DNA of 63,331 bases from a virus. Each line of letters begins with the position of its first letter. Positions within the stretch are counted from its first letter, which is position 1. The position numbers were made by a program, and so were the translations under genes. Under the pieces are notes generated by a model that saw nothing but the letters and a program-made list of their open reading frames with translations, was not told the origin of the DNA and did no database searches. Location of the stretch: positions 1 to 63,331 of the IMG/VR virus record IMGVR_UViG_3300021964_000059. One strand, written 5' to 3'. This document shows, one piece after another, positions 6,944 through 57,461 of this stretch.

Positions 6944-6978
6944 AAATATGTTTGCAAGTTTCCGTAAAAGTAAACATA

Positions 6979-11822: not shown

Positions 11823-12385
11823 AAGTCGGTGATAAGTATACTGCCAATCATGTTAATCGTCTGAGAGATCATATTCCAGGGATCATGTGCTTAACTGATG
11901 ATCCCACTGGACTGAACGGTAATTATATGACTCTTCCTGATCTGCCTTTGCATGGTGTCTGGTGGAAAATGTATTTATTTCACTATAACTTTCCGCAGGG
12001 GACATTTCTTGATTTGGATATTGATATCAGAAAACCAATAGATGGAATTTTTAAACCGAAGAATGGTATGACCTTGCTTCGTACAGATTGGGAAGACTTG
12101 GATCAGTTGAATAAAAATACAATCGGGGACAGATACAAGTACTGTTCAATTAACTCTTCTGTTATGTCGTGGAGTACATGCACTCACCATATATGGAACG
12201 ATTTTATTAATAATTATGAAAAGATAATGAGTCTATTCAATGGAATTGATACGTACTTAGAACACAGACATATCAAAAGTCTATCATTCTTTGATGTTGG
12301 ACTAGTCGCATCGTATCGATGTAACCCAGATGCTGATGTTTATATTATGTCATATGATGGGGAAGGAAAACATGGATTTAACTAA
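11807..12385 (+). CDS. GT-A-type glycosyltransferase-like protein, 192 aa
   Basis: Contains FLDLDIDI, a DxD metal/nucleotide-sugar motif after a hydrophobic strand. It is preceded by WWKMYLFHY and followed by CSINSSVMSWS, the usual 'NSSVM' acceptor-side strand of this phage-type GT-A family. It shares architecture with the two GT-A genes at 12998 and 13735. Short for a GT-A enzyme. Overlaps the radical SAM gene by 16 bases. Donor and acceptor are not predictable. Confidence 0.6.
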   Translation: MFYCLKVGDKYTANHVNRLRDHIPGIMCLTDDPTGLNGNYMTLPDLPLHGVWWKMYLFHYNFPQGTFLDLDIDIRKPIDGIFKPKNGMTLLRTDWEDLDQLNKNTIGDRYKYCSINSSVMSWSTCTHHIWNDFINNYEKIMSLFNGIDTYLEHRHIKSLSFFDVGLVASYRCNPDADVYIMSYDGEGKHGFN

Positions 12386-13001
12386 TACGATGAAAAGGAT
12401 TCCAATCCCTTTTTGGGAATGGACTCGGATCATTCATTTATTATACCACGATTATCCTCACAGAGTCAAGGATTTTTCTCAATCATTTTCAAAAAACCAA
12501 GTGTATGCCAAATCGTGGTTAGTAGAAAGATTAATGATGCACAGCATCTGCAATGTAAAAGATAAAGAAGTGTGGATTCTTGGATCGTGGTATGGTACAA
12601 TTCTTGTATACCTATTATACAATAAAATTCCAAATATTAAAACAATTCATCTGGTGGATTATGATATGGAAGCTCTGAAGATAGCCAATGATCTTTTCAG
12701 AGATTACAATATTAAAACTCACCATTACGATATCAACTTCGATTGGCCAAAGATCAAAGGTGATATAATCATCAACACCTCTTGTGAACACATGTGGCCA
12801 ATGAAAGATTATAATTTTAATGGTCTGTGTGTATTCCAGTCTAATAATTTTAGAGAAGAACCAGCCCATATCAATTGTGTTGACTCCCTGGAAGAATTTG
12901 TTAAACAAACAGGAATAAGTCAAATAGACTATAAAGGTGAGATAGACTTTCATGAGTACGATAATTATCACAAACGATATATGATAATTGGAAGAAAATG
13001 A
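12372..13001 (+). CDS. Class I SAM-dependent methyltransferase-like protein, 209 aa
   Basis: Start placed at ATG 12372 because GGAAGGA lies just upstream; an upstream in-frame ATG at 12330 lies deep inside the previous gene. VWILGSWYGTILVYLL is motif I of a Rossmann methyltransferase (glycine loop), HLVDYDMEALKIAN gives the acidic ribose-binding residue, and GDIIINTSCEHMW is the catalytic-loop region. I associate this compact family with marine T4-like phages. Likely target is a sugar, lipid or small molecule made by the cassette. Confidence 0.65.
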   Translation: MDLTNTMKRIPIPFWEWTRIIHLLYHDYPHRVKDFSQSFSKNQVYAKSWLVERLMMHSICNVKDKEVWILGSWYGTILVYLLYNKIPNIKTIHLVDYDMEALKIANDLFRDYNIKTHHYDINFDWPKIKGDIIINTSCEHMWPMKDYNFNGLCVFQSNNFREEPAHINCVDSLEEFVKQTGISQIDYKGEIDFHEYDNYHKRYMIIGRK

Positions 13002-13753
13002 TTCATGTAGTGTGTAGCAAGTGGGGAGACAAGTATCCAATCGAGTATGTCAACCGGTTGCATGATATGGTCGACAAATATCTTCCAAGTAGGTTTCAGT
13101 TTTATTGTCAAACCGATAATACGGATGGTATGCTCCCGTGGATTGAACACATCCCCTTCTCCAATGATTTACCAGAGAATGAACCGAAGTACACTAGAGA
13201 TACCTTATGGGATAGACCTAAACTAAACTACTTCAACCCTGATTTCCTTAAGAAGAATGATATTAAAATTGCCTTGGACCTGGATCTGATTATTCATAAT
13301 AGTATGAGACCTCTACTAGATTTGTTCAATGATAAACCAATCACTGGAAGATCATGGTGGCATAATATGGATTGGGAAAGAGAGCCTGAATGGAAAAGAA
13401 GATATGGTGCCAGAAATAATGGTGGTTTTTATATGTGGCAAGGTGAACAAACAAAACCGATATGGGACGATCTAGTGGAGAATTGGCAACGAATCTATTT
13501 TTGTTTTCGGGGTGGATCTGACAACTTTATTACAACCCGACATCTTGATTTATTTGATTTTGTTCCTTCATCGATGTATTATTCTTTTAACAGAGGGTGT
13601 CAGTGGCCACATGATATTAGTAAGCATATAGTAAGAGGAGATAAAATAATCTGCCTATTTAATACAGATCCAGGTGACCCAACCAATCTTGACATTCATG
13701 ATGCTATTAAACTTTATCCTCAGGTAGAGAAGTTGTGGAAATTAGAGCAGTAA
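12998..13753 (+). CDS. GT-A-type glycosyltransferase-like protein, 251 aa
   Basis: Begins in an ATGA overlap. KIALDLDLIIHN supplies the DxD motif. Flanking WDRPKLNYF and a later NNGGFYMWQGEQTKPIW strand (NxGxxM-like) fit GT-A folds with a C-terminal aromatic helix. Pairs with the next gene, which has the same layout. It could transfer successive sugars in one oligosaccharide. Donor unknown. Confidence 0.65.
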   Translation: MIHVVCSKWGDKYPIEYVNRLHDMVDKYLPSRFQFYCQTDNTDGMLPWIEHIPFSNDLPENEPKYTRDTLWDRPKLNYFNPDFLKKNDIKIALDLDLIIHNSMRPLLDLFNDKPITGRSWWHNMDWEREPEWKRRYGARNNGGFYMWQGEQTKPIWDDLVENWQRIYFCFRGGSDNFITTRHLDLFDFVPSSMYYSFNRGCQWPHDISKHIVRGDKIICLFNTDPGDPTNLDIHDAIKLYPQVEKLWKLEQ

Positions 13754-14367
13754 GAATTGGAAACAGGTATGGACCTGAATACGAGGATTACCTTAAAAGC
13801 AAATTGCCTGAGATAAAGTTCTTAAACGAACAACAAAATAATCTGTGGTTGCAGTGGAATAAGTTAAACTTTTTTGCACTGGACTATAATGAACCAATAT
13901 GCGTCATTGACATTGATATCCTTTTGATTAATGATTATATAGAGATTTTCAACTATCCAATAGAGCGCGGTGAGTTTTTGACGGTCAAGCAGTGGTGGGA
14001 TCCTGAAGCAGCAACAGAACTCAATGGGGTGTTCTACAAATTTTATCCAAGCGACACAAAATACATCTTTGATAAACTTATCGAGTCACCAAGATATTGG
14101 ATGGAATATTTTATTAAGAATAAAATCAAACCGGGCCCAATTAATGGGGAGGAGAACTTTGTTGAGATGATGGCTAAGAAGAGATTGAAAATCAAGTACT
14201 TACCGGAAACATGGTGTTGCAGAATGAGTAATAATAAAGAGTTCAAAGCCAAGATTAATGCTTTGTCCCCTTTACCATATGTTCACTTAGACAAGTATCA
14301 TCCTGATATAAAATTAGTCCATTTCAGCGACGTTAACAATCATATCGATCACAGCAGCCAACTCTAA
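13735..14367 (+). CDS. GT-A-type glycosyltransferase-like protein, last gene of cassette, 210 aa
   Basis: GTG start at 13735 inside the previous gene. CVIDIDILLINDY gives the DxD region, ELNGVFYKFYPSDTKY matches the acceptor strand, and VHLDKYHPDIKLVHF is the C-terminal 'VHF' strand that closes these enzymes. The 3' end overlaps the convergent virion gene by 54 bases (14314-14367), so there is no room for an intergenic terminator. Confidence 0.6.
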   Translation: MEIRAVRIGNRYGPEYEDYLKSKLPEIKFLNEQQNNLWLQWNKLNFFALDYNEPICVIDIDILLINDYIEIFNYPIERGEFLTVKQWWDPEAATELNGVFYKFYPSDTKYIFDKLIESPRYWMEYFIKNKIKPGPINGEENFVEMMAKKRLKIKYLPETWCCRMSNNKEFKAKINALSPLPYVHLDKYHPDIKLVHFSDVNNHIDHSSQL

Positions 14368-42033: not shown

Positions 42034-42107
42034 TGGCCCCGGTGGAGGGAATCGAACCCCCATTAAGGGTTTTGGAGACCCCTGTGTTGCCATTACACCA
42101 CACCGGA
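42034..42107 (-). tRNA. tRNA-Trp (CCA)
   Basis: Minus strand. Acceptor TCCGGTG pairs with CACCGGG, discriminator G, and the CCA end is encoded. Anticodon loop CTCCAAA between GGGGT and ACCCT gives anticodon CCA (Trp). The T-loop region reads GGGTTCGATTCCC. Confidence 0.9.
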
Positions 42108-42329
42108 AATGGGACTGTCTTTATGGCGCAGTCATTCCAAAAATAAAAGCGGAACGGGTGGATTAGGGTAACCACCAAGGGGGTACGATCAGATGTACCT
42201 TTCTACATAGACCCCCAACAACTCGCAACCCCGCTAAGGGTGTGGACGCTATCCCTTTGAGTCTACCTTACCCGCCATCTGCGACAGGCATTCGGTCACG
42301 TTCCTATCGGTGTTGCAATCACCGAACTC
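42108..42329 (-). ncRNA. Putative structured RNA A between tRNA-Pro and tRNA-Trp (222 nt)
   Basis: No start-to-stop reading frame of note covers this spacer, yet it contains strong complementary segments on the minus strand: CGGTG-ATTGCAA-CACCG, GGTGG-TTACCCTAAT-CCACC, a GGGGGT ... ACCCCC stem with inner TGTA-GAAAGG-TACA, AAGGG ... CCCTT, and GACTG-CGCCATAAAGA-CAGTC near the 3' end. T4 has stable RNAs of unknown role (RNA C and RNA D) inside its tRNA cluster, a precedent. Function is unknown; folding was judged by eye. Confidence 0.5.
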
Positions 42330-42406
42330 TGGTCGGAGTAGATGGATTCGAACCACCGACATCTGCCTCCCAAAGGCAGCGGTCTACCAGACTGACCTAT
42401 ACTCCG
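42330..42406 (-). tRNA. tRNA-Pro (UGG)
   Basis: Minus strand. Acceptor CGGAGTA pairs with TACTCCG; discriminator A and CCA are encoded. Anticodon loop TTTGGGA in stem CTGCC/GGCAG gives TGG (UGG, Pro). T-arm GGTTCGAATCC is intact. Confidence 0.9.
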
Positions 42407-42606
42407 TAAAAAGTGAACAGTTTGTATGCACATGTTCAGGTGCAGCCTGTTGTCAGGTCTTCAAGCCTGATGCCTAAGCAGCGCAGGAACATAGAATTAG
42501 TGAAGGTTCCGATATCACCCATCGTCACCTACAACCGTTGAGAGAGGTACGAGGTCCCACCTTACGATCGGTGGGTTCGTGGTCCAAAGACCTCTCTGAT
42601 TTGCTC
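42407..42606 (-). ncRNA. Putative structured RNA B between tRNA-Cys and tRNA-Pro (200 nt)
   Basis: Non-coding spacer with dense pairing potential on the minus strand: AGAGAGGT ... ACCTCTCT closing CCCACC-GATCGTAA-GGTGGG, a GGAAC ... GTTCC stem, TCAGG-CTTGAAGA-CCTGA, and a final TGAACA ... TGTTCA stem followed by CTTTTTA, which resembles a terminator. It is flanked immediately by tRNA-Cys and tRNA-Pro and would be released by tRNA processing. No homologous named RNA is recognised. Confidence 0.5.
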
Positions 42607-42681
42607 TGGAGTGGACGACAGGAATCGAACCTGCCTAAAACTGATTTGCAGTCAGTCGCCTAACCTATCAGCCACGTCCAC
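42607..42681 (-). tRNA. tRNA-Cys (GCA)
   Basis: Minus strand. Acceptor GTGGACG pairs with CGTCCAC; discriminator T and CCA are encoded. Anticodon loop CTGCAAA in stem ACTGA/TCAGT gives GCA (Cys). T-arm GGTTCGATTCC. Confidence 0.9.
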
Positions 42682-42691
42682 GAAAATGTTT

Positions 42692-42767
42692 TGGCTGGCA
42701 TGACAGGGTTCGAACCTGTGACCGGACGGTTAACAGCCGTCTACTCTACCAACTGAGCTACATGCCA
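42692..42767 (-). tRNA. tRNA-Asn (GUU)
   Basis: Minus strand. Acceptor TGGCATG pairs with CATGCCA; discriminator G and CCA are encoded. Anticodon loop CTGTTAA in stem GACGG/CCGTC gives GTT (Asn). T-arm GGTTCGAACC. Confidence 0.9.
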
Positions 42768-42786
42768 CCAAAACACTCTAAACTAC

Positions 42787-42832
42787 CAAATGAGGATGAG
42801 GACTTATTTTGGCTGCCTCGTTTCCTCATTTG
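42787..42832 (-). promoter_or_regulatory. 10-bp inverted repeat in the leader of the tRNA transcript
   Basis: CAAATGAGGA (42787-42796) is perfectly repeated in inverse at 42823-42832, just downstream of the promoter at 42841-42869. The same CAAATGAGGA is used as a Shine-Dalgarno leader at other early promoters of this phage; here it forms a hairpin with itself upstream of a tRNA and is not followed by a gene. Confidence 0.6.
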
Positions 42833-42840
42833 ATGTAAAC

Positions 42841-42869
42841 ATTATAATGTAGTTCAATACAAAAGTAAA
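42841..42869 (-). promoter_or_regulatory. Early sigma70-like promoter for the tRNA cluster
   Basis: Minus strand: TTTACT, exact 17-bp spacer, TATAAT (the wider -35 context is GTTTACTTT). The start would lie near 42834, upstream of the inverted repeat and tRNA-Asn. T4 early promoters have the similar GTTTAC...TATAAT layout. Confidence 0.75.
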
Positions 42870-42929
42870 CAATTATTTTTAAGTATTTTATTTATTATTT
42901 TTCAATGGTTTACAACATATTATTAAATA

Positions 42930-43006
42930 TGGTGCCCTCACCCCGATTCGAACGGGGAACCCCAAACTTAGAAGGTTTGTGCTCTGTCCAATTGAGCTAT
43001 GAGGAC
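42930..43006 (-). tRNA. tRNA-Arg (UCU)
   Basis: Minus strand. Acceptor GTCCTCA pairs with TGAGGGC (one G-U), discriminator A and CCA are encoded. Anticodon loop CTTCTAA in stem CAAAC/GTTTG gives TCT (Arg). It lies upstream of the promoter, beside the membrane-protein gene, and may be transcribed separately from the other four. Confidence 0.9.
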
Positions 43007-45688: not shown

Positions 45689-46309
45689 TTATGAAGCTTT
45701 CTTACCTTTGCTGTGAAGTTCTACTCTAACATTGTCGGAAACAGGGAACTTAATATTATTATGATTATGGTGCAAAACAAATTCCACCTGGTTAAATTCT
45801 TTGAACATATTTGTCCAGATCGGTCTCCAGTTGTTGGCCAACCGGTTTGTGTTCATGTCATCGCGAGGAGAAGGAAGATAAAAATCTGTGCACGATCTCA
45901 AATTGAAATCAAACATCGAATCAAATCCCCACATATGAACAATATCTGGTTTGAACTTTGTGCAGCCAAAGTGAGTACACATGTGGCCACAGTTGAAATC
46001 AGTATAGTTTGCAACATACTTAGGAAGTGTTAGATAAAATTCTTTGATCCTAGGTGCAACCTTCATGTAAAACCCAGGATTCTTTTCCATCCAAATCTTT
46101 GGTCTCATCCCAAGAATCCAGTTACCTGGAGCTTCAATCTCCCCTTCTGTAATTGCTTTCATCATCTTAAAATCAACAATTATGGTTCCATAAGCATTCT
46201 CTACAGGAAATGGTGGAATGTTACAGGTCAGGTTTAGCCCTTTGCGAGGTGCCTCGTTATAAAAATGTGCATTGTCACCATTGCCAACAATGTGTACAAC
46301 CCTAGGCAT
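45689..46309 (-). CDS. Glycan-cassette protein, possibly GT29/MptE-like, 206 aa
   Basis: Last gene of the large minus-strand glycan cassette. The opening VVHIVGNGDNAHFYNEAPRK has the 'V(V/I)GNG' nucleotide-sugar turn typical of DUF115/MptE-like and sialyltransferase-like (GT29/GT42-type) proteins. Further aromatic-rich strands (WILGMRPKIWMEKNPGFYMK, then DIVHMWGFDSMFDFN). It overlaps the upstream GT gene by eight bases. Catalytic residues cannot be confirmed; role as a transferase is inferred. Confidence 0.5.
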   Translation of the reverse strand: MPRVVHIVGNGDNAHFYNEAPRKGLNLTCNIPPFPVENAYGTIIVDFKMMKAITEGEIEAPGNWILGMRPKIWMEKNPGFYMKVAPRIKEFYLTLPKYVANYTDFNCGHMCTHFGCTKFKPDIVHMWGFDSMFDFNLRSCTDFYLPSPRDDMNTNRLANNWRPIWTNMFKEFNQVEFVLHHNHNNIKFPVSDNVRVELHSKGKKAS

Positions 46310-46943
46310 TCATTTGTCTCCTAATTTCATCTTTGCCTTTCTGACCTGTCCAGTGAGTTATTAGTTCACCTTTTGGCCTTCGGCCATCAATAATATCTAA
46401 TCTGAGCACATTATATTTGTGCGGAAGGTCTTTTATATATGACATCTTTGTAATTGGATTTAACATTGTGTGGAGGACTTCTTGGTCTCCCCGAACAGTT
46501 GTTTCTTCCACCTGTTGGTCCCACAGTTTAAGAATCTGTGGCTTACCTTGAAAGGCGACAATTCCTGAATTATGCCAAATCTCTTGTCGGCGCTTTGTCC
46601 AAGGATGGTCGATAACCATAGACAACTTCTCCGGCTCAACCTCTTCGAAGATGCTACTGATATCCCCGTGGACCTGACAGTCTGTATCAATCCAACAGGT
46701 TTTATCTGCTGGACAATGAACCATTGATTTTGGTTTGAGGAACCATCCCTTGCCTTTGAACTTCGATAAGTCTAAGACACCGACTGCTTTGGTTTGAATG
46801 TATTTTAGCATATCGGAGGAGATGCCAAAGTTTGCAAAGACCAACGGAGTATTATTATGTTTTTCGTAGTTCTCTACAAACCATGGCAACATCCATTCTG
46901 TATTCTCATCACATCCTGTTAAAAAGGCTTCAGAGTATCTCAT
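46302..46943 (-). CDS. GT-A glycosyltransferase-like protein, 213 aa
   Basis: Start set at ATG 46943 (MRYSEAFLTGCDENTEWMLP), overlapping the end of the preceding gene by 14 bases; longer frames run through it. ADKTCWIDTDCQVHGD carries the DTD (DxD-type) motif, followed by RRQEIWHNSGIVAFQGKPQI, the NSGIV acceptor strand of GT-A enzymes, and DQEVLHTML, the partner strand. Donor unknown. Related in layout to the GT8-like gene at 48840. Confidence 0.65.
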   Translation of the reverse strand: MRYSEAFLTGCDENTEWMLPWFVENYEKHNNTPLVFANFGISSDMLKYIQTKAVGVLDLSKFKGKGWFLKPKSMVHCPADKTCWIDTDCQVHGDISSIFEEVEPEKLSMVIDHPWTKRRQEIWHNSGIVAFQGKPQILKLWDQQVEETTVRGDQEVLHTMLNPITKMSYIKDLPHKYNVLRLDIIDGRRPKGELITHWTGQKGKDEIRRQMNA

Positions 46944-47571
46944 ATGTTTCACCATAATTATGTTTTGCCTGGCAGCCCACTTCATTCTGAATAGTTGTGA
47001 ATGTATCACGAGCTTCCACCGGCCATGGATAAAATTCTTTCAGGTTAGGAAAGTTATCAAGATTGATAAAAACATCTGTCGGTCCAGCATTTCTCAACGC
47101 CTTCTCGATCAGCTGCCGAGCTCCGGCCGGTTCAATATAATATCCATGAGCTCCTGGAAAGTATCTCTTGGAAACAAGAGGACCTTCTCCTAATACTTGA
47201 GGAGTATTAAACCGACCATAAGAAGGCTTACCAAGATTGACAATTGGACTTTGAAATAGAGAGGGCAATGAGTTAACAAAAATTGCATCGTGTTCAAGAA
47301 TTACAAATGGTTCTTTACTCTCAGCACATTTTTCCCATAAGGCAAAATGAGAAAGAAATGCAGCCAAACAATTATTGAACCGAGAATACTTTTCTTCAAA
47401 ATTGTCGATTGGTATTTGTTTTTCTGATGAAATCTTTACGGGACTATCACTCGGGGTGAATGCCCTATACTTGATTACATCGATACCAAATAACTTTCCG
47501 GACTGAATACAACGATCGGCCGACTTTACAGATTTATCATTATCAAAGATTGTAATTACATATGCTTTCAT
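46930..47571 (-). CDS. Glycosyltransferase family 25-like protein, 213 aa
   Basis: Contains the GT25 (LPS glycosyltransferase) signatures NNCLAAFLSHFALWEKC, then EPFVILEHDAIFVNSL with the EhDxxF acidic motif, and later PGAHGYYIEPAGARQLIE. Length (213 aa) is typical of short phage GT25 enzymes. GT25 members add galactose or glucose to LPS or glycoproteins. It is adjacent to a second GT25-like gene, suggesting sequential sugars. Confidence 0.75.
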   Translation of the reverse strand: MKAYVITIFDNDKSVKSADRCIQSGKLFGIDVIKYRAFTPSDSPVKISSEKQIPIDNFEEKYSRFNNCLAAFLSHFALWEKCAESKEPFVILEHDAIFVNSLPSLFQSPIVNLGKPSYGRFNTPQVLGEGPLVSKRYFPGAHGYYIEPAGARQLIEKALRNAGPTDVFINLDNFPNLKEFYPWPVEARDTFTTIQNEVGCQAKHNYGETYEIL

Positions 47572-48248
47572 GATGTTGTTGAGGGTGTTCCCTGCACCTT
47601 TGTATAAAATGTCTTTGTTACACCAAGCATGCTACCAACAAGTTGTTTGCACATTAATGCATCATTTGGCCACGCTCCATACTCATCCACGAGCTCGAGC
47701 ATCTTTCTAGCACCTTTTGGTTTAATTATATATGCACTATTTCCAGCCAGACCTTGAGGAACTGTAACCTCATCAATTACTGGAACTTGTTGAATAAAGT
47801 CATTATTTCTTCGAATAACGTCATAGTATTGCTGTGATCTTCTCGTTGCACCAAGAGGATTGTTGATTCCAACAATTTGATACTTGTTATCCAATATTCT
47901 AAGAAGATCGAGGTCTCTGACGAAAATAGCATCATGCTCAAGAATCATATACGGATCCTTACCTTGGGAACATTCCTTCCAAAGAATATAATGACTAAGG
48001 AAGCATGCAATCCGTGTCTTTGGGTTGGGTGTTTGGTATGGATTGAGCTTCAAGCCTGAAGCAAAGTCGATTGTAGGACTGTCCCAAGGATACGTCCATT
48101 TGATTCCATACTCTTCCATCAGATCGTCAACTTGATCTGGAGTGATAGCATCAAATGTTTCAATGAAGATCTTTGTAGACTTCATACATTTCTCAGCAGC
48201 TGCTTCAGAAACTTTATTATCTTTAATTACGATAATACTTGACTTCAC
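47568..48248 (-). CDS. Glycosyltransferase family 25-like protein, 226 aa
   Basis: GT25 features TRIACFLSHYILWKECSQGK, DPYMILEHDAIFVRDLDLLR and GLAGNSAYIIKPKGARKMLE, in the same order as its neighbour at 46930. The two are paralogous but diverged (different N-termini). Starts with an ATGA overlap with the methyltransferase upstream. Likely LPS- or glycan-directed transferase. Confidence 0.75.
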   Translation of the reverse strand: MKSSIIVIKDNKVSEAAAEKCMKSTKIFIETFDAITPDQVDDLMEEYGIKWTYPWDSPTIDFASGLKLNPYQTPNPKTRIACFLSHYILWKECSQGKDPYMILEHDAIFVRDLDLLRILDNKYQIVGINNPLGATRRSQQYYDVIRRNNDFIQQVPVIDEVTVPQGLAGNSAYIIKPKGARKMLELVDEYGAWPNDALMCKQLVGSMLGVTKTFYTKVQGTPSTTS

Positions 48249-48838
48249 TTTGTACCTTCGACAACAATCGATTCGTATTCACGCAGACCGTCAACCAGAT
48301 CAACCCCGTCTAGTTCTTTGTGTTCACTCTTTGCATACCAACATTGTTTGACATCTTGGAATCCTACTTTTTCATGTTGGTTAATAAGCATCTCAAGTGT
48401 GGGTACCCAATAGTGACCCTGTTCTGTTAGACTACGTTGAGAGATTCGATTTGCGGCACCAAGGAATGTATCGCGATTCCAGATCTTACGGCAATAGTTC
48501 TTTGTAAACTCACTATGATCATCGCGATGGTTTTCATAGAAAGTTCTACTCGGTGCAACAGTACGAATAATACCACCGGGCTTTAATACACGAAGACACT
48601 CGGTTAAACAATGGATCCCTTGTTTCTCATATACATGTTCAATCATATGTTCACTAAAGATGTAATCGATTGAGTTATCTTCGAATGGAAATGTTTCTGT
48701 AACATTGAGCTCAATGATCTCATATCCCTCTGCTCTCATCTCTTCAAACCAGTCGAGTGTCTTTTGTTTCTTTGTATGGTCAGAATTAATCCAACCTTTC
48801 TTTGGTTCTCTGCCACAACCAAGGACAAGCTTTTTCAT
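48245..48838 (-). CDS. Class I SAM-dependent methyltransferase, 197 aa
   Basis: Start at ATG 48838 (MKKLVLGCGREPKKGWINSD), a few bases after the stop of the upstream gene. LVLGCG is methyltransferase motif I, NVTETFPFEDNSIDYIFSEH is the catalytic-loop region, and CLTECLRVLKPGGIIRTVAP is the post-motif strand of the Methyltransf_11 fold. Embedded among sugar genes, it likely O-methylates a sugar or the growing glycan. Confidence 0.75.
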   Translation of the reverse strand: MKKLVLGCGREPKKGWINSDHTKKQKTLDWFEEMRAEGYEIIELNVTETFPFEDNSIDYIFSEHMIEHVYEKQGIHCLTECLRVLKPGGIIRTVAPSRTFYENHRDDHSEFTKNYCRKIWNRDTFLGAANRISQRSLTEQGHYWVPTLEMLINQHEKVGFQDVKQCWYAKSEHKELDGVDLVDGLREYESIVVEGTK

Positions 48839-48839
48839 T

Positions 48840-49493
48840 TTAAACTCCAAAATGTCTATCAAAAAGTGGAATGTTACTGTTATATATTTGCCTGCATCGA
48901 CCAGCAACATGTACTACAGGCGTATGTTGAGAATATTCATTCTCTCTTAGAAAGCACGCATCTCGGCGATCAATCATTTGATAATCTCCTAATACCTTCT
49001 CAGTCATTAGATTAAGAGCATATTGATCTCTACCTGGGATCGTATTTCTATATTGTTTACGATAAGCCTGTGGATCAATCTCACGAAGTTTTTCAATTGA
49101 TTCGCGTGTAAATATTATGATTCCACTGTTAAAGTAGGTATTCCCCCATTTCTGGTACTCCGGCCGGGACTTTGGAAGTGGATCATCTACTTCTTTACAT
49201 GCTGAAAATGTATTATATTTTTCGAATACATTTACCTTGACGTCTTGGATAAAAACATCAGCGTCAAGAAATACAATACGATCATAGTCGTCATATTCAT
49301 TTGTTTCAAGTACGCGAAAGACTTCCCACTGAGGATCAAATCCCTTGAAGTAGTTTTGCGTTTCGCGCTGGTAATCCCATTGAATATTGGATGCATACCT
49401 TTGAACTGTACCAACCGCTTTTTCATATAATGATGCTTTTGATTCGTGTAGATTTTTTTCAACACTAAAATGCTGTAGAATTAAATTTTTCAT
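48840..49493 (-). CDS. GT8-like glycosyltransferase, 217 aa
   Basis: DYDRIVFLDADVFIQD supplies the DAD (DxD) motif of GT8/glycogenin-like enzymes, followed by WGNTYFNSGIIIFTRESIEK, the conserved NSGI acceptor strand, and GRDQYALNLM. Length is typical. GT8 enzymes transfer glucose or galactose retaining the anomer. Downstream of the sulfoquinovose synthase gene with a one-base gap, so it may use or accept the sulfosugar. Confidence 0.7.
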   Translation of the reverse strand: MKNLILQHFSVEKNLHESKASLYEKAVGTVQRYASNIQWDYQRETQNYFKGFDPQWEVFRVLETNEYDDYDRIVFLDADVFIQDVKVNVFEKYNTFSACKEVDDPLPKSRPEYQKWGNTYFNSGIIIFTRESIEKLREIDPQAYRKQYRNTIPGRDQYALNLMTEKVLGDYQMIDRRDACFLRENEYSQHTPVVHVAGRCRQIYNSNIPLFDRHFGV

Positions 49494-49494
49494 A

Positions 49495-50640
49495 TTACCA
49501 TTTAGGTGAGTTTGTTACATTGTCAAACAACAGGTAGTCCTTACACTGCTCAGCAATGAACTTAACATCATCAATCAATCCTTCATTTAAAGTGATTGGT
49601 TCAAAACCAAGGGACTTCAAACCTTCGTTGACAACACTAAGGTCGTTAACAGGAGCCTCCTTACGAGGGTTGTCCAAATACTGAATTGCTGCCCCATACC
49701 TAGTTGCAATCATGTCAGCCAACTCATTGACCTCTTGGACTTCAGAAACCTGGTTAAAGATTCTCACTCTTGATGTATCTTCAGGTGGTGTCTGGCAAGC
49801 CAACATTACACAGTTTGCTGTATCTTCTATGTGGATAAATGCTCTCTTCTGTCCACCGACACCATAAACAGTCAACGGATGATCAACTGCAGCCTGAGAA
49901 ATAAATCTATTCAATACTGTACCGTAAAGACCATCGTAATCAAATCTGTTAACAAGTTGCGGATCAAGACGCGTCTCTTCAGTCTGTGTTCCCCAAACAA
50001 TTCCTTGATGGAGATCTGTAATCTTCAACTTCCAATTTTTGTTATAGAACTGAAAAAGAATCTGGTCGAGAGACTTCGTCATATGATAGACACTACCAGG
50101 ATTTGTTGGATATAAAATATCTACCTGTTCATTGGTCTGGTTGATAGTGATATCCAAATATCCTTCCGGAATATCCCCAAACTCTTTTGAATAACCATAG
50201 ACACCCATCGTTCCTAAATGGACGAGGTGAATATCTTGATCAACATCGACAATAGCATTTAATACATTATGTGTAGCAACAACATTATTATCAACTGTGT
50301 ATCGTCTCTCTTTGTTCGAGATCATTGAATAGGGAGCTGCCCGTTGTTCAGCAAAATGAACAATTGTGTCTGGTTTATGCTTCTCTACATGGCTAACGAA
50401 CATCTCGTAGTCTGTAACATCAACATTAATAAATTCAATATTGGCGTTGAGTATTTGATTAGCTACCTCGACTCGAGTGGTGATTGAGGAGATATTTGTT
50501 AACGAATTACTTTTTGTTTCAACATCAATCTGTCGTCGGGATAAGTTGTCAAGAATGAATACCTTATGGCCATTCTTGGCCAGTTTTAATGCTGTTGGCC
50601 ACCCACAGAATCCATCTCCGCCAAGAATAAATAATTTCAT
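49495..50640 (-). CDS. sqdB: UDP-sulfoquinovose synthase (SQD1/SqdB-like)
   Basis: A short-chain dehydrogenase/epimerase fold with unmistakable SQD1-type signatures. The N-terminus GGDGFCGWPTA (7-17) is the NAD-binding loop (SQD1: GGDGYCGWPTA). HFAEQRAAPYSMI, DNNVVATHNVLNAI, LGTMGVYG (Thr144), SVYHMTK (Tyr185, Lys189; active-site YxxxK), HQGIVWGTQT and NRFISQAAVDHPLTVYGVGG all follow the plant and cyanobacterial enzyme in order. It converts UDP-glucose plus sulfite into UDP-sulfoquinovose, the donor for sulfolipid SQDG. Length 381 aa is usual. No SqdX/SQD2-type sulfolipid transferase is obvious nearby, so the sulfosugar may go to a glycan rather than lipid. Confidence 0.85.
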   Translation of the reverse strand: MKLFILGGDGFCGWPTALKLAKNGHKVFILDNLSRRQIDVETKSNSLTNISSITTRVEVANQILNANIEFINVDVTDYEMFVSHVEKHKPDTIVHFAEQRAAPYSMISNKERRYTVDNNVVATHNVLNAIVDVDQDIHLVHLGTMGVYGYSKEFGDIPEGYLDITINQTNEQVDILYPTNPGSVYHMTKSLDQILFQFYNKNWKLKITDLHQGIVWGTQTEETRLDPQLVNRFDYDGLYGTVLNRFISQAAVDHPLTVYGVGGQKRAFIHIEDTANCVMLACQTPPEDTSRVRIFNQVSEVQEVNELADMIATRYGAAIQYLDNPRKEAPVNDLSVVNEGLKSLGFEPITLNEGLIDDVKFIAEQCKDYLLFDNVTNSPKW

Positions 50641-51332
50641 GTGTATAATTCCTTAATGTATTGCTTTTTTCCACCAGTATAATGTACAAAATTTATTTCT
50701 TCTGGTATGAATCCTTCATTGAATCTCATTCGAGGAAAGCAGTTCCATTTCAATGGTAGTTCCTTATAGTTCAGGTGTTTGATGATCTGTCCGTTGAAAT
50801 ATGGTTGATCAAGAGAAAAATGATCAACGTTCTTTATCCACTCGGTGCACGGCAAGAATTTTTCTTTTGCTTTATTCAGTCCTTCTCTCGACCAAAGCAT
50901 TACACCACTATTGAACATTAAATATTCAGCTTTCACTGTCTGAGGTTGAATAAATGGTATATTATATACCTTTGTGATAAGCTCCCAGGTATTAACATAT
51001 TCTGGTTTCATGAATAGAGGTTCAACCTTCATTCCATTTGCTCGATGCTCTGGGACTAGAGCAGCGTCCTCAATCTCTATATCAAAAATGTTTTCAATAA
51101 AGTTTTCAACAATAACATCGGTGTCAACATATAATACTCGATCATAATATTTAAATGTATCGAGGTAGATCATCTTGAGCTTTTCGAAGTAGTGGTTATT
51201 GCAGAATTCATATTTTTCGAAGAAGAAATAATCTGCGCCAGTTACTTCTGCATACTTTTTAAATTTTTGTTGACTGATACCTACCCACTCTGGTTTTGGG
51301 CCCATATGATATTGAAATATAGCTTTCTTCAT
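50637..51332 (-). CDS. GT-A glycosyltransferase-like protein, 231 aa
   Basis: Start ATG 51332 overlaps the stop of the previous gene (ATGA). YYDRVLYVDTDVIVENFI holds the DTD (DxD) motif, MFNSGVMLWSREG is the acceptor strand, and SLDQPYFNG completes the GT-A active-site layout. The N-terminus KKAIFQYHMGPKPEWVGISQ resembles the 257-aa neighbour at 52051, its paralogue. The ATGA stop also couples it to the sulfoquinovose synthase. Confidence 0.7.
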   Translation of the reverse strand: MKKAIFQYHMGPKPEWVGISQQKFKKYAEVTGADYFFFEKYEFCNNHYFEKLKMIYLDTFKYYDRVLYVDTDVIVENFIENIFDIEIEDAALVPEHRANGMKVEPLFMKPEYVNTWELITKVYNIPFIQPQTVKAEYLMFNSGVMLWSREGLNKAKEKFLPCTEWIKNVDHFSLDQPYFNGQIIKHLNYKELPLKWNCFPRMRFNEGFIPEEINFVHYTGGKKQYIKELYT

Positions 51333-52054
51333 CGAAAAGTTGATACCACAGACTTGTCTGGGTTTGCCCACCCAGAAATGCATCGATGGTTATTATCTCC
51401 ACTGAGTATTTGCCACCAACCATATTCAGCAGCAATTAATTTCTTTTCTTCGTGCAGCTTATATACCCGATCAATATCTAATAGATCGTTATGATGGATA
51501 ATCAATTGATCAAATAGAAAATGATTATGGTAGTTATTACCACGCTGCTCCTGTATCTTTGTAAATCCTGAATCACTAATCGAAAGACAGGCAAACCCTA
51601 TTGCTCTTTTATTTTGATAACTATCCTTGACATATTGTCCGAACATAGCCTGTCTATAGGTAAGAGTATCATATCTACACCTGACTATTATATCATACTT
51701 TTGTGGTAAAGTGCTAACTAATTTACAATGGGCAAGTATTTGTTTTGTTTGGTGAGAAGAAGTTTCCTTGAATTTTGGATTTATTTTTGCCTGACGAACT
51801 GCTTTAGCAAGTTTACCGGATTCCTTTGCAACTTCTATATCAATAAAGGGGTGGTAATGCATCTTCGGTTCGTCAAAGAATTCAACAGCAAAGTCTCGGA
51901 AGTACTTTTCAATAATGGACTCATATCCTTTCCATGATCCATAGTAAAAATCAGCATCAGGAAAGTTAATTTTGAGGTTGTCATAATTTCTTCTTAGGTC
52001 TCTGTTGTTTACTCCTGATCTGGGAGCACCAGAGACACATACTGCTACTTTCAT
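51329..52054 (-). CDS. Unknown glycan-cassette protein, 241 aa
   Basis: VAVCVSGAPRSGVNNRDLRR opens a fold seen in other phage proteins with FPDADFYYGSWKGYESI and later YDIIVRCRYDTLTYRQAMFG, perhaps a GT-like or sulfotransferase-like protein (a loop with Ser-Gly near a nucleotide). No catalytic residues can be assigned. It overlaps both neighbours and belongs to the cassette. Confidence 0.45.
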   Translation of the reverse strand: MKVAVCVSGAPRSGVNNRDLRRNYDNLKINFPDADFYYGSWKGYESIIEKYFRDFAVEFFDEPKMHYHPFIDIEVAKESGKLAKAVRQAKINPKFKETSSHQTKQILAHCKLVSTLPQKYDIIVRCRYDTLTYRQAMFGQYVKDSYQNKRAIGFACLSISDSGFTKIQEQRGNNYHNHFLFDQLIIHHNDLLDIDRVYKLHEEKKLIAAEYGWWQILSGDNNHRCISGWANPDKSVVSTFR

Positions 52055-52824
52055 CGTAAGTCTTTAAAGATCTTTGGTATTTGGTATCTACTGTCATTGA
52101 CATAATGTGCAAAGTTACAAGGATAATCCTCGTTTCTTGTTGGGAATCTATTCCATTCAATTCCAAGCTCAAGGACATCAAAATTGTGTCTACTCCACAT
52201 TGCGTTCATGTATGGCTGATCCAAACAATGTGAACTGTGGCCACCAACATTAACCCACTTCTTATCTAACCACGCATTTCTAAACTCGAACCATTCTTCA
52301 TGATCGACAAACAGTTCTCTTGCTTTTAGTCTAGCCTGCTTTGACCATAACATTACACCCGAGTTGATCATCCTCAAAGGAGCATTTGTACTCTTTGCTG
52401 GAATGATCGGAGCTCCAAAATGAGCAAATCTTTGAGTCAGTGGTCCTGATGGCTGCCAATTAATCTGAGCTGTAATGTCCGGGTGTCTATACTCAGGCCA
52501 ACCAGCAACATCGATTACAGGCAAGTTGAACACGTTTGCGTCCATGTTTTTTGGCATGACATCTACATCACAATACAGTACATTCTCATATTGATCAAAG
52601 ATAGGATCTTTAAATATTCTTGTCACTTCAAAATAATTGGAACGAGACTCAACAAATCTATCTGTCATGAAGTGATGATCAGCATCATGTTTCTTAGCAT
52701 ATTCTTTGAAGTGTGCAACTGAATATTCAGCCCACTCAGGCATTCCCTCTGTAGGATAATGTCTACTCTGCTTACCTATCCCATTATAGTTTAGATAATA
52801 TTGGAAGATTGCATTCTTAGCCAT
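52051..52824 (-). CDS. GT-A glycosyltransferase-like protein, 257 aa
   Basis: NVLYCDVDVMPKNMDANVFN supplies the DVD motif (DxD). INSGVMLWSKQARLKARE is the acceptor strand and DQPYMNAMW the distal motif, as in the paralogue at 50637. The N-terminus AIFQYYLNYNGIGKQSRHYP matches KKAIFQYHM there, so both arose by duplication. Start ATG 52824 overlaps the methyltransferase upstream. Confidence 0.7.
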   Translation of the reverse strand: MAKNAIFQYYLNYNGIGKQSRHYPTEGMPEWAEYSVAHFKEYAKKHDADHHFMTDRFVESRSNYFEVTRIFKDPIFDQYENVLYCDVDVMPKNMDANVFNLPVIDVAGWPEYRHPDITAQINWQPSGPLTQRFAHFGAPIIPAKSTNAPLRMINSGVMLWSKQARLKARELFVDHEEWFEFRNAWLDKKWVNVGGHSSHCLDQPYMNAMWSRHNFDVLELGIEWNRFPTRNEDYPCNFAHYVNDSRYQIPKIFKDLR

Positions 52825-53464: not shown

Positions 53465-54301
53465 TCATTTCCTATCTGTGTGCATTAACATGAACACGTT
53501 ATCCATCAAGTCTTGGTCAATTAATTTTTTAATCCACATTGGCTTATATTTAGCAAACGCTTTCTTAAAGAAAACAGGATCAATTCTCGTCTGAGATTCT
53601 AAAAAGCTTCCTCTGTCACCCTGAGGAGCATGAGTATTGTCTACGTTAATGATCTCAATCCTACAGTCGTCCTGAGTAATTAAATAGTAGAAAAATAAAA
53701 TGAAATCAAATGATTCGTATGTTAGTTTGGATCTGACATTTGGGTTGTCATAATCAATGTATTCCAGAAAGGCATAAAATCTATCGCGGTCATACACTGG
53801 AACATCATTGAACCAAATGTAGCTGTGGAAGTTATCAGTTATCCGTTTAATCTTCTCATAATCCTCTTGAATGAAAAATTCTCTAGCGGTCCGGTTGCCA
53901 ATCATGTCATTGATTCCTCGGTTAACTACCTTGCTTGCAGTATAGACCTTTTCATTGACTTGTTGTTTAAACAAAGCATCATAATCTTTATTCATAATAA
54001 ATTTTGAGTCAACATCAATAACGGCGGCATAATCAAAGTCAGTGTTATTGAATACCCATCGGGCTCCAAACAACTTCTTCTGGGTAATTGGTTTTGAACC
54101 AAGAAGCTTTTCTGTGCAGACAATAGACTGATATTTTAGGTGTTCTGTCTTAGATTCAAACAGATCCTTCTCATCTTTATTGGTGAATACAATAAACAGG
54201 TCTCTATCATCAAAGTGATTATTATATGATTGTATAAATTCAATCCCTCGATCCATGTGTTTTCCAACATGAATTGGTGCTACAAAACAAGAATTTTTCA
54301 T
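53465..54301 (-). CDS. GT-A-like glycosyltransferase, 278 aa
   Basis: FDYAAVIDVDSKFIMNKDYD contains DVD in a GT-A-type context. Pre-motif strand LFGARWVFNNT and later SKVVNRGINDMIGNRTAREF support a nucleotide-sugar fold. The C-terminal half (YDNPNVRSKLTYESFDFILF) differs from the other GT-A genes. Acceptor and donor unknown; the DxD is less convincing than in the neighbours. Confidence 0.5.
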   Translation of the reverse strand: MKNSCFVAPIHVGKHMDRGIEFIQSYNNHFDDRDLFIVFTNKDEKDLFESKTEHLKYQSIVCTEKLLGSKPITQKKLFGARWVFNNTDFDYAAVIDVDSKFIMNKDYDALFKQQVNEKVYTASKVVNRGINDMIGNRTAREFFIQEDYEKIKRITDNFHSYIWFNDVPVYDRDRFYAFLEYIDYDNPNVRSKLTYESFDFILFFYYLITQDDCRIEIINVDNTHAPQGDRGSFLESQTRIDPVFFKKAFAKYKPMWIKKLIDQDLMDNVFMLMHTDRK

Positions 54302-55644
54302 GTGTTATGCTTCAAATAAGTCTCTAAATCTTCTGGTGTTCCTAGACCCCACATACCAGATGCTGTGTATGTTCGAATCTCTTTACTATCTTCAATTGCC
54401 TCATTGAACACTGGACAAACGTAGAATTCGTTATTAACCCGAATATCTTTCTCAATCATCTGTTCAGCATACTTGACGAAGTCAGAGCCCTTCTTCCAAT
54501 AGTAGTATCCTACCGTAGCATTATCCGATATTGGTTTCTTTTCGGCAACCTCTGTTACACAACCTTTTTCATTTATTTTTGCAAATGACCATTTAGGATG
54601 TGTTGCCTTGAATGTAACAATACCACCATCAGCACTCTTTTCTTGCATGTTGTACATAAATTCAATTGGATCCCACTCGACATACTGATCGGAGTTGGCA
54701 AAAAATAATGGTCGGTCATTATTAATAAACTCTTTTGCAAGCAACGCTGTACATGCAGCTCCTTCAGTGATTCCATCAGTCTCTACTACTTTACAATCGG
54801 GTGCAATTAAGTTTAGCATTGTATCAAGCTGATATTTTTCTCTGTGCTCTTTTTGTACTACAAAGATATAATTAGCATCCAAGCCAAGATTGTCAACCAC
54901 AACCTGAATCATCGGTTTGCCATTTACATCAATTAGAGGTTTAGGGAATGTGTATCCGGCCTGAGCGAATCTACTTCCAGCTCCTGCCATCGGAATCAAA
55001 ACATTTAATTTATCATCAGACCATTTCTTTTGCATTGGTTCACCTTTCAAATGAGGAAATATTTTATTACAATTCACTTCATATGGATTTGCCACTCTGA
55101 TGTACTTAGCCCTTGACCTAGAGGCAGCTAATAGTCCCGGAGGAGAATCTTCTACAATCAAGGTTTCTTCGGGTAAGACACCCATCATAGACATTGCCTT
55201 CCAATAGATCTCAGGGTGTGGTTTGGAATTCTTGACGTCATCATTTGACAAAATAATCGAACAATGTTCAATCAAATCAGTCTTCGCTAAAGCTGTCAAA
55301 GCAGTACGACGAATAGAATTTGTACAAACACCAATCTTATAGTCGTTGATCTCAAGCTCTTCAAATAAGAACTTAATATCTCGGATTGGTTTAAGTTCAC
55401 TGAGCTTATCAATTGTCAGGGCTTGTTTCTTTTCAAAGATTGTTTGATGAAGATCGAGTGGAAGTCCTTTTGCATCAGAAAGCATGTCGAGCTTTTCGCG
55501 AGTCTTTCTACCATCGTAGATATTATGATGCTCATCATCTGTAATTGCATACTGAGGTCCAAGAGCCTCGTTGAGAGCTTCATAATGAATTTGTTTGGCA
55601 TCAATCAGTACACCATCCAAATCAAACAATACCAACTTGATCAC
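54298..55644 (-). CDS. HAD phosphatase/phosphomutase - nucleotidyltransferase fusion, 448 aa
   Basis: Residues 1-~205 are a HAD-superfamily domain with FDLDGVLIDA (Asp8, Asp10) and IVEDSPPGLLAAS (motif IV), of the beta-phosphoglucomutase/phosphatase type. Residues ~210-448 are a nucleotidyltransferase with LIPMAGAGSRFAQAGYTFPK, the KPLIDVNGKPMI core and WGLGTPEDLETY C-terminal element, as in glucose-1-phosphate uridylyl/thymidylyl transferases. This domain order in one chain could make sugar-1-phosphate and then an NDP-sugar. It would supply donors (for example UDP-glucose for the sulfoquinovose synthase), but the nucleotide specificity is not readable. Confidence 0.75.
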   Translation of the reverse strand: MIKLVLFDLDGVLIDAKQIHYEALNEALGPQYAITDDEHHNIYDGRKTREKLDMLSDAKGLPLDLHQTIFEKKQALTIDKLSELKPIRDIKFLFEELEINDYKIGVCTNSIRRTALTALAKTDLIEHCSIILSNDDVKNSKPHPEIYWKAMSMMGVLPEETLIVEDSPPGLLAASRSRAKYIRVANPYEVNCNKIFPHLKGEPMQKKWSDDKLNVLIPMAGAGSRFAQAGYTFPKPLIDVNGKPMIQVVVDNLGLDANYIFVVQKEHREKYQLDTMLNLIAPDCKVVETDGITEGAACTALLAKEFINNDRPLFFANSDQYVEWDPIEFMYNMQEKSADGGIVTFKATHPKWSFAKINEKGCVTEVAEKKPISDNATVGYYYWKKGSDFVKYAEQMIEKDIRVNNEFYVCPVFNEAIEDSKEIRTYTASGMWGLGTPEDLETYLKHNT

Positions 55645-56420
55645 ATCACGTCCTTCATTAGCTGAGTAACATTTTCTCCAGCACTTGGCAATTTATCTTT
55701 TAAGAAGAAATGTACAAAATGAGCCGAGGCTGGATCTTTAACTGCCGTATATAAGGCATTCCATCTCCAGTTCAGATGCTGCTGTTTCATTTTTTCTTTA
55801 CGGACCCAATAGTTCAAAAGTGTTTGATCTGTTGACCATTTCCATGGTCCTTGGCCATCCACAAAGTCTTTAAACTCGGGTCTTGTAATAAAGTCCTTTG
55901 CTGATTGATTGATATACTTATAGATTGATTTATTCATCATCATCAGACCCATGTTATAGAACTCAAATCCATGCTTACCCGGACTGAAGTCAACCTTACT
56001 GTGAAGGGATTGGTATTGCATTCTGGAATAGTTATCAATCTTTTGAGCATACCAAGGTTGGATAGGCATGTCGCGCTCGATTACTCCAGCAAAGTCTACA
56101 CTGGGATCAACGCTATCAAAAATATTAGGAGAATTAGGTCGAATCCAAATATCAGCGTCCACAATGCATATTTGATCATATCTGTCGAAGTAATCAAACG
56201 CATTTTCTTTTTCGTAGATTGGTAGGAACCCACCATGTTTTTCATAAGACTCTTTTGATCTATTTGTTGCAAAAACGTCTGGTTTGATTTTTAAGATCGG
56301 AGTTGTTTGAACTATATGATCAATACCGTGTTCTTGACAATACATTGCAACAGATGCTGTACAATGGTCATATAATCTAGAGGGTTTACCGACGTAAACC
56401 TGATATATCATTCGCTTCAT
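55641..56420 (-). CDS. GT-A glycosyltransferase-like protein, 259 aa
   Basis: First glycosyltransferase of the cassette. DQICIVDADIWIRPNSPNIF supplies DAD (DxD), with KHGFEFYNMGLMMMNKSIYK as acceptor strand and WSTDQTLLNYWVRK as the distal element. Start is ATG 56420 (MKRMIYQVYVGKPSRLYDHC), the ATG at 56411 being an alternative. Ends overlapping the HAD fusion gene (ATGA). Confidence 0.7.
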   Translation of the reverse strand: MKRMIYQVYVGKPSRLYDHCTASVAMYCQEHGIDHIVQTTPILKIKPDVFATNRSKESYEKHGGFLPIYEKENAFDYFDRYDQICIVDADIWIRPNSPNIFDSVDPSVDFAGVIERDMPIQPWYAQKIDNYSRMQYQSLHSKVDFSPGKHGFEFYNMGLMMMNKSIYKYINQSAKDFITRPEFKDFVDGQGPWKWSTDQTLLNYWVRKEKMKQQHLNWRWNALYTAVKDPASAHFVHFFLKDKLPSAGENVTQLMKDVM

Positions 56421-56424
56421 TCAA

Positions 56425-56595
56425 TTATCGCTTTTTCCATTCAACACATGTATATGTATAGTTGCCGTCAAGTTCACTTGTCATCATCTTACCGACTTCA
56501 CGACATTCATTCCAGCTTGTGTACCATCCTTGGTCATAAGCTATGACCTCCGGATTAGACCCGGAAGTCATTATCATAACCAAAAGTACCCACAC
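56425..56595 (-). CDS. Small exported-type protein with two cysteines, 56 aa
   Basis: Below the usual length cutoff. A GTG start at 56595 overlaps the stop of the EF-hand gene (TAGTG); a shorter start at ATG 56577 is possible. It begins with a short hydrophobic stretch (WVLLVMIM) and continues YDQGWYTSWNECREVGKMMT and CVEWKKR. It looks like a tiny exported or membrane-anchored protein with one disulfide. The reading frame is codon-sensible and fills an otherwise empty gap. It may be a spanin- or holin-associated peptide, but this is speculative. Confidence 0.5.
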   Translation of the reverse strand: MWVLLVMIMTSGSNPEVIAYDQGWYTSWNECREVGKMMTSELDGNYTYTCVEWKKR

Positions 56596-56927
56596 TATTT
56601 ACTTGCCTTTTTTCCTAATGCATCAGCACCAAAGAAAGCAGAAACTAAAACTGCGATTGACGCAAAGTAAGTTGGCGCAATATCAGCAATTAATTGTGCT
56701 GCTGTATCTAAACCAAATGCGGAAGTCAAGAAGATCCCGATTGGGTAAAGCAACAACCCAAATAATGCGAACCATGCCATTTTCCGAATAGCATCTCTTT
56801 GATTATCTGCATCTTCAAGTTCTTTACGTTTGAACTCAAGATACATCTGATGTTCTTCTGGTGTGACAATACCGTCACCATTACTATCAGCAGGATGGAA
56901 ACCTGCCTTTTCAATTTCTTCTGACAT
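56595..56927 (-). CDS. EF-hand membrane protein, holin-like, 110 aa
   Basis: Start ATG 56927 follows GAGAGGAGATGGAT; an ATG at 56933 is inside the ribosome site. N-terminal EF-hand loop ADSNGDGIVTPEE (residues ~13-25, Ca-binding DxNxDG...E) is followed by two predicted membrane helices (AWFALFGLLLYPIGIFLTSA and YFASIAVLVSAFFGADAL). A two-helix, late-expressed membrane protein fits a holin or pump-like role; calcium control would be unusual. First gene behind the late promoter at 56956, upstream of the glycan cassette. Confidence 0.6.
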   Translation of the reverse strand: MSEEIEKAGFHPADSNGDGIVTPEEHQMYLEFKRKELEDADNQRDAIRKMAWFALFGLLLYPIGIFLTSAFGLDTAAQLIADIAPTYFASIAVLVSAFFGADALGKKASK

Positions 56928-56954
56928 ATCCATCTCCTCTCATAGTGGATATGA

Positions 56955-57461
56955 CTATTTATACTTTAAGGCCTCTTCGAGCTGAACAAATAGGTACTCT
57001 TCCAAATCATCTTCATTAGCTTGATAGCGAATACCAATACCACCAGCATCGTTCCAACGCTTGATGTTGTCTGGTTTATCATCAATCAAAATGTTTGGAA
57101 GACCAGTAATACTTGAAGTTGCATACTTATGTTTGTTACTAGTAAAAATGCATTTTGAAACAGCTGGCATATACCCATTCTTTTCTAACCAGCGCCGCTT
57201 GTGGTAAGTTGAGTTTGCATAATCGTTACGAATCGGGGATGAACAAATACCCCAGTCTCCGTTGGACAACTCCCGAACAAAAGCAATCAATTGATCAGAC
57301 GTTTCGAATTTTTCTAAATTCTGAAAGAAGTCTGTATTACGAAGATCGATGATTCGCTCATCCACATCAAAAATATCTTTCCAGTGAAATGCCTTGAACT
57401 TCCGCTCTAAGCCACCAAAGAAGTCAGCGATGACTCCATCCATATCCACATATATTGTCAT
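56955..57461 (-). CDS. HAD-family 5'(3')-deoxyribonucleotidase-like protein, 168 aa
   Basis: Start ATG 57461 overlaps the upstream stop (TAATG) and follows AGAGGAAT. IYVDMDGVIADFF is HAD motif I (Asp nucleophile and DxD), GDWGICSSPIRNDYANS is the mid region, and LPNILIDDKPDNIKRW holds motif IV (IDD). This arrangement is that of the 5'(3')-deoxyribonucleotidase (NT5C) family. It could hydrolyse host dNMPs or recycle nucleotides. Confidence 0.7.
   Translation of the reverse strand: MTIYVDMDGVIADFFGGLERKFKAFHWKDIFDVDERIIDLRNTDFFQNLEKFETSDQLIAFVRELSNGDWGICSSPIRNDYANSTYHKRRWLEKNGYMPAVSKCIFTSNKHKYATSSITGLPNILIDDKPDNIKRWNDAGGIGIRYQANEDDLEEYLFVQLEEALKYK
56956..56963 (-). promoter_or_regulatory. Late promoter TATAAATA driving the glycan cassette
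   Basis: Exact TATAAATA on the minus strand, 29 bases upstream of the ATG at 56927 and inside the 3' end of the upstream gene. Same spacing as late promoters before virion genes. All genes from 56927 to 45689 follow in the same orientation with small gaps or overlaps. Confidence 0.75.

Follow-up and report, generated by a model that had tools for sequence, protein, structure and literature searches.

A fragment of a marine T4-like phage genome encodes a homologue of UDP-sulfoquinovose synthase (SqdB) within a cassette of glycosyltransferase genes. The reading that we prefer, with a probability of about 0.65, is that the phage supplies UDP-sulfoquinovose for a glycan which it builds itself, most likely on a virion protein and otherwise on a host surface glycan. 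Sulfoquinovose is known mainly as the head group of a sulfolipid, and in Sulfolobus it is also part of a glycoprotein glycan. The homology, residues, fold, purifying selection, phage clade and cassette linkage reported here were all computed in this analysis.

The window, that is, the whole stretch of DNA that was analysed, is a complete IMG/VR record of 63,331 bases. The record is classed as linear, so the phage genome is incomplete. Structural and replication genes of T4 type, including gp32, baseplate wedge subunits, T4 RNase H and ribonucleotide reductase, place the phage among the T4-like phages. For its gp32 and baseplate proteins the closest records are phage C48C1 (Kyanoviridae, with no host given in its record), Pelagibacter phage HTVC008M and Methylophilales phage Melnitz. 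A row of five tRNA genes (Trp, Pro, Cys, Asn and Arg) is located at 42034-43006 on the minus strand. A second block is located at 6952-14367 on the plus strand, opposite to the cassette and between tail-fibre/baseplate genes. It encodes weak Asp/Arg hydroxylase-like, QueC/PP-loop-like, radical SAM-SPASM and glycosyltransferase-like proteins and a protein with a weak methyltransferase match, and it could modify the tail fibres.

An earlier note on this DNA had placed the sqdB open reading frame at 49495-50640 without naming a strand; these coordinates are exact and the gene is on the minus strand. The full-length SQD1/SqdB signatures described there were recovered, with the protein aligning to SQD1 over residues 2-377 of 381 and to the NCBIfam model NF041015 (UDP-sulfoquinovose synthase) over residues 1-368. 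Its best match in the PDB is SQD1 of Arabidopsis (E 4.5e-88, with the next solved family at 6e-11), and NF041015 assigns it 364 bits vs 59 for GalE. The window protein falls short of the curated cut-off of this model (575 bits) but, since the SqdB of S. meliloti scores just 332 bits, this cut-off appears to exclude the proteobacterial SqdB type. The window and S. meliloti proteins are 57% identical over 369 residues and have the motif GTMGVYG in common. The S. meliloti gene order is sqdB - GT8 glycosyltransferase - SDR epimerase, beside tolQR and ruvAB. This is the sqdBDC arrangement and, from this order and from general knowledge, we take the locus to be the genetically studied sqdB. Genes of the sqdBDC type have been named in S. 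meliloti (PMC10315480), and sqdBDC has been described in R. sphaeroides, where sqdB was deleted in order to abolish SQDG (PMC11346425).

An AlphaFold2 model of the window SqdB (mean pLDDT 81, pTM 0.88) was closest in Foldseek to three SQD1 structures (E about 1e-37, TM 0.90-0.91, 41% identity), 1qrr matching with an E-value of 1.4e-37 (TM 0.90) vs 2.8e-20 for GalE. The active-site loops of the model have low confidence, so we make no claim from docking. By sequence and fold, SQD1/SqdB outscores GalE, RmlB and other epimerases, and we observed none of the sequence features that, according to the earlier note, would count against a UDP-sulfoquinovose synthase. The protein almost certainly belongs to this family and, judging from its sequence, its product is very probably UDP-sulfoquinovose. 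T4-like genes on the same contig, the repeated finding of sqdB together with this cassette in viral contigs, and a low dN/dS rule out an artefact, a chance open reading frame and host contamination.

The NAD loop (GGDGFCGWPT, with GGDGFCG as the GxxGxxG element) and the Thr/Tyr/Lys triad noted previously are both present, with Thr145, Tyr182 and Lys186 of SQD1 corresponding to Thr144, Tyr185 and Lys189 of the window SqdB. The active-site fingerprint [ST]MG...YxxxK (PMC8987622) occurs as GTMG at 143-146 and Y185HMTK189. Agl3 is inactivated by alanine at His95, Arg101, Met145, Tyr182 or Lys186 (PMC4388408), and all of the equivalent residues are conserved in the window protein (His95, Arg100, Met145, Tyr185 and Lys189). 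We found one departure, which is that Glu148 of SQD1 (Glu147 of Agl3) is replaced by Val147. The E147A variant of Agl3 retains 12.4% of its 5,6-ene-forming activity (PMC4388408). S. meliloti SqdB likewise has a valine at this position, as do 43 of 43 aligned T4-like phage proteins and 80 of 80 fetched bacterial relatives. Because the S. meliloti enzyme lacks the glutamate, Glu147/148 would seem to characterise the plant and archaeal enzymes without defining the SqdB/SQD1 family as a whole.

This substitution would fit an enzyme that shares the fold and first chemical steps of SQD1 but releases another product, such as UDP-glucose-5,6-ene or a 6-modified sugar made from another nucleophile or nucleotide sugar. 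Such a product would also agree with the distance between the bacterial SqdB type and SQD1 in the tree, and with the halting of SQD1 and Agl3 at the 5,6-ene when sulfite is absent (PMC8987622). However, S. meliloti SqdB has the same valine in an sqdBDC locus, genes of the same type in Rhodovulum, Roseivivax and Marinovum are adjacent to SqdD, and a PAPS-reductase-domain gene is next door in two bacterial relatives, which is consistent with sulfite use. We therefore regard a different product as very unlikely.

The gene had been described as lying in an operon with glycosyltransferases, methyltransferases and a HAD-nucleotidyltransferase fusion. This cassette is real; it runs from 56420 down to 45689 on the minus strand and contains GT8-like, GT25 and glycosyltransferase-like genes, two SAM methyltransferases and the fusion gene. 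The features of the region are as follows:

56956-56963, minus strand: TATAAATA, a T4-type late promoter motif, 23 nt upstream of the start at 56933
56595-56933, minus strand: small protein before the cassette, with an EF-hand-like motif and hydrophobic stretches (from sequence and hydropathy)
55641-56420, minus strand: first cassette gene, a GT-A glycosyltransferase (51-72% identity across sqdB phages)
54298-55644, minus strand: HAD hydrolase - sugar-phosphate nucleotidyltransferase fusion (PF13419 at residues 5-184, PF00483 at residues 219-440)
53465-54301, minus strand: cassette protein of no family (no Pfam match; 96% in the 141-kb contig L003)
52817-53461, minus strand: SAM-dependent methyltransferase (PF13578, E 1e-6; phrog_21658, E 2e-12)
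52051-52824, minus strand: glycosyltransferase-like protein, weak GT8 (PF01501, E 0.018; 31% to the frame called at 50637-51383)
51329-52054, minus strand: cassette protein without an assigned family (phrog_13607, E 1e-7; 86% in L003)
50637-51332, minus strand: GT8-family glycosyltransferase directly upstream of sqdB (PF01501, E 5e-12)
49495-50640, minus strand: UDP-sulfoquinovose synthase homologue (SqdB), 381 aa (PDB, NCBIfam, Foldseek, residues, dN/dS)
48840-49493, minus strand: GT8-like glycosyltransferase directly downstream of sqdB (weak PF01501; 71% in L003, 23-44% in others)
48245-48838, minus strand: SAM-dependent methyltransferase (PF08241, E 4e-11; likely start MKKLVLGCG near 48838)
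47568-48248, minus strand: GT25-type glycosyltransferase (PF01755, E 2e-16; 40-54% across sqdB phages)
46930-47571, minus strand: GT25-type glycosyltransferase, second copy (PF01755, E 5e-11; 47-61% across sqdB phages)
46302-47009, minus strand: conserved protein of no family with a DTD motif (46-57% across sqdB phages; no Pfam match)
45689-46309, minus strand: last cassette protein, conserved, of no family (48-69% across sqdB phages)

The GT8 frame beginning at 50637 was called to 51383; an MKKAIF start and an ATGA overlap with its neighbour place its end near 51332.

Across sqdB phages the recurrent members of the cassette are its first gene, the two GT25 genes and the final two genes. The GT8-like genes flanking sqdB are variable (23-35% identity in most sqdB phages), and homologues of the upstream GT8 gene are found near sqdB in many phage loci with 26-34% identity. 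In fold, the first transferase is nearest to UGGT, the PBCV-1 capsid glycosyltransferase and LgtC, all with low or modest TM-scores, and these matches suggest its class only. It is present in 41 of the sqdB phage loci, and its family extends to at least 180 viral contigs. In a similarity-ranked sample of 79 contigs anchored on this transferase, bounded by the search patterns, sqdB was within the fetched DNA of four, and it was present in two of the 40 anchored contigs having at least 6 kb downstream. These counts led us to reject the transferase as a dedicated partner of sqdB, and it is better described as a general cassette gene. Because sqdB is found in just these four contigs, it would be an optional extra in a broader cassette, and sulfoquinovose would be an optional decoration. 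None of 50,697 phage records matched the first transferase, and the family appears to mark an unsampled marine phage group. In some loci (L026, L031, L032, L033, L035, L125-L127 and L134) sqdB is immediately preceded by a gene for a second, generic NDP-sugar epimerase (about 300-320 aa, 22-28% identity).

The operon had also been called late-type, which the placement of TATAAATA supports modestly and its number does not. The motif occurs seven times in the window, a count reached in 26 of 100 shuffles and so at chance level. Five of the seven fall in the 45 nt ahead of a start on the same strand; such intervals account for 2.3% of all strand positions. No copy is found inside the cassette, and one precedes the gene ahead of it. 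From this arrangement, it is plausible that the cassette is a single late unit.

Scans of viral contigs for sqdB returned 39 loci and then 74, while the isolate phages of INPHARED contained no close SqdB homologue, the best matches (~25% identity) being to ordinary epimerases. Between the window and L003, sqdB has a dN of 0.021 and a dS of 0.52 (dN/dS about 0.04) and is under strong purifying selection. The SqdB proteins of T4-like phages form a single clade with a support of 100, separate from bacterial SqdBs (100/100). Copies from three Amylibacter genomes (L239, L240 and L241; L041 in A. kogurei) are nested within the phage clade. This nesting points to a transfer of sqdB from phage to Amylibacter bacteria, and these copies are a hint at the host range of the sqdB phages. 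In A. kogurei the phage-type sqdB adjoins a polysaccharide and sulfotransferase-like locus. Separate, less similar SqdB copies are found outside the T4-like clade on viral contigs of 92-266 kb (L131, L132, L140, L141, L150 and others); a terminase is present in some of these records only, and we do not lean on them. Besides proteobacteria, sqdB of the GTMGVYG type is also found in Bacillota, Actinomycetota, Deinococcota and Cyanobacteriota (L042-L120), in many cases in polysaccharide loci, and polysaccharides containing sulfoquinovose may be more common than has been assumed.

The nearest characterised-type relative of the phage enzyme is S. meliloti SqdB, whose gene serves sulfolipid synthesis and adjoins that of SqdD; SqdD itself belongs to GT8, the broad family of the phage gene adjoining sqdB. 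The phage SqdB could accordingly be proposed to boost host SQDG synthesis by feeding host SqdD or SqdX, for example sparing phospholipid phosphate. We consider this quite unlikely on several grounds. No SqdD homologue was detected by BLAST in the phage loci, and the phage GT8 was rejected as an SqdD orthologue as BLAST and profile comparison align the two just around the DxD. A check for an SqdX-like transferase found no GT4/SqdX-type gene in the window, which is a fragment, or in seven relatives. An SqdC partner was likewise not found. SqdD adjoins sqdB in 5 of the 80 fetched bacterial relatives, with Rhodovulum, Roseivivax and Marinovum, named above, carrying the window type of SqdB. Other downstream neighbours in the bacterial relatives include GT4 transferases, cellulose-synthase-like BcsB and sugar dehydratases; together with the PAPS-reductase-domain genes, these show that this SqdB type appears in polysaccharide loci too. 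In the phages sqdB is linked to a glycosyltransferase cassette and not to lipid or phosphate-stress genes. It is probable that UDP-sulfoquinovose is used for a glycan rather than a lipid.

In our preferred reading, a phage-built glycan, the SqdB-type enzyme would take NAD+, host UDP-glucose and host sulfite in the infected cell and form UDP-sulfoquinovose, through oxidation at C4, dehydration to the 5,6-ene, addition of sulfite and reduction. A phage-encoded PAPS reductase was rejected as the source of sulfite, with none present in 12 phage records, and sulfite would therefore be host-derived. One soluble phage glycosyltransferase would then move sulfoquinovose into a short glycan built by the late-expressed cassette, the acceptor most likely being a virion protein and otherwise a host surface glycan. 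We infer the catalytic activity, sulfite source, choice of transferase, acceptor, linkage and chemistry.

The cassette and its relatives yielded neither an initiating sugar transferase nor a Wzx-type flippase, and hydropathy indicates that the cassette enzymes are without membrane segments, which leaves direct cytoplasmic transfer, to a virion protein or a host precursor. Soluble enzymes would suit a virion glycoprotein, but host lipid-linked or LPS precursors are equally conceivable substrates for them. In marine T4-like phages, glycosyltransferase cassettes are commonly interpreted as modifying LPS. This usual reading, the phage-type gene in Amylibacter genomes and the polysaccharide locus beside the A. 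kogurei copy would all agree with sulfoquinovose being placed on a host envelope glycan (LPS/capsule), blocking superinfection or progeny re-adsorption. We regard this as unlikely, given that neither the cassette nor its relatives were found to encode a flippase, an initiating transferase or a glycosyltransferase of the membrane, and that a late-type position is at least as compatible with modification of the virion. The virion as acceptor is itself tentative, with less than an even chance. Thus, for the sulfonated surface sugar proposed in the earlier note, the glycan context is upheld by the conserved cassette, the lack of SqdD/SqdX-like genes in the phages searched and the soluble enzymes, and the surface location stays conjectural. 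The fullest version, in which a widespread marine T4-like lineage decorates virion proteins with sulfoquinovose on a phage-built glycan and has passed the gene to Amylibacter, is doubtful, its odds falling well short of even.

If the preferred reading is true, viruses would be producers of a sulfonated sugar through their own UDP-sulfoquinovose synthase, virions or infected cells would bear a negatively charged decoration, and marine organosulfur cycling would gain an extra route. To our knowledge, sulfoquinovose on virions would, if true, be the first sulfonated-sugar decoration of any virus. Our searches of the open-licence literature turned up no article devoted to phage C48C1 and none treating sqdB as an auxiliary metabolic gene, and the T4-like sqdB clade, its cassette and the Amylibacter transfer appear to be new in the searchable literature and data.

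Like the glycosyltransferase/LPS cassettes of marine T4-like phages, the region described here is a variable block of sugar genes in a T4-like genome; unlike them, it carries sqdB and begins with the transferase that is unmatched in the phage records. The enzyme resembles the sqdBDC-type SqdB of S. meliloti and R. sphaeroides in its identity to the S. meliloti protein, GTMGVYG motif and key residues. However, the phage gene has no adjacent sqdD, its proteins form a separate clade and a glycosyltransferase cassette replaces the lipid operon. Arabidopsis SQD1 (1qrr/1i24) has the same fold, NAD loop and Thr/Tyr/Lys triad, but it is about 40% identical, has Glu148 in place of Val147 and serves plant sulfolipid. 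A putative UDP-sulfoquinovose synthase of a Mu-like phage from the Cariaco Basin (900 m) is discussed under glycosylation (PMC7785012); going by that section, it is likewise viral with the same annotated function, whereas the phage studied here is T4-like and has the clade and glycosyltransferase cassette described above. Agl3 of Sulfolobus acidocaldarius differs in belonging to archaeal N-glycosylation and in having Glu147, but it has the same essential residues and its UDP-sulfoquinovose serves a glycoprotein glycan (PMC4388408), as proposed here for the phage.
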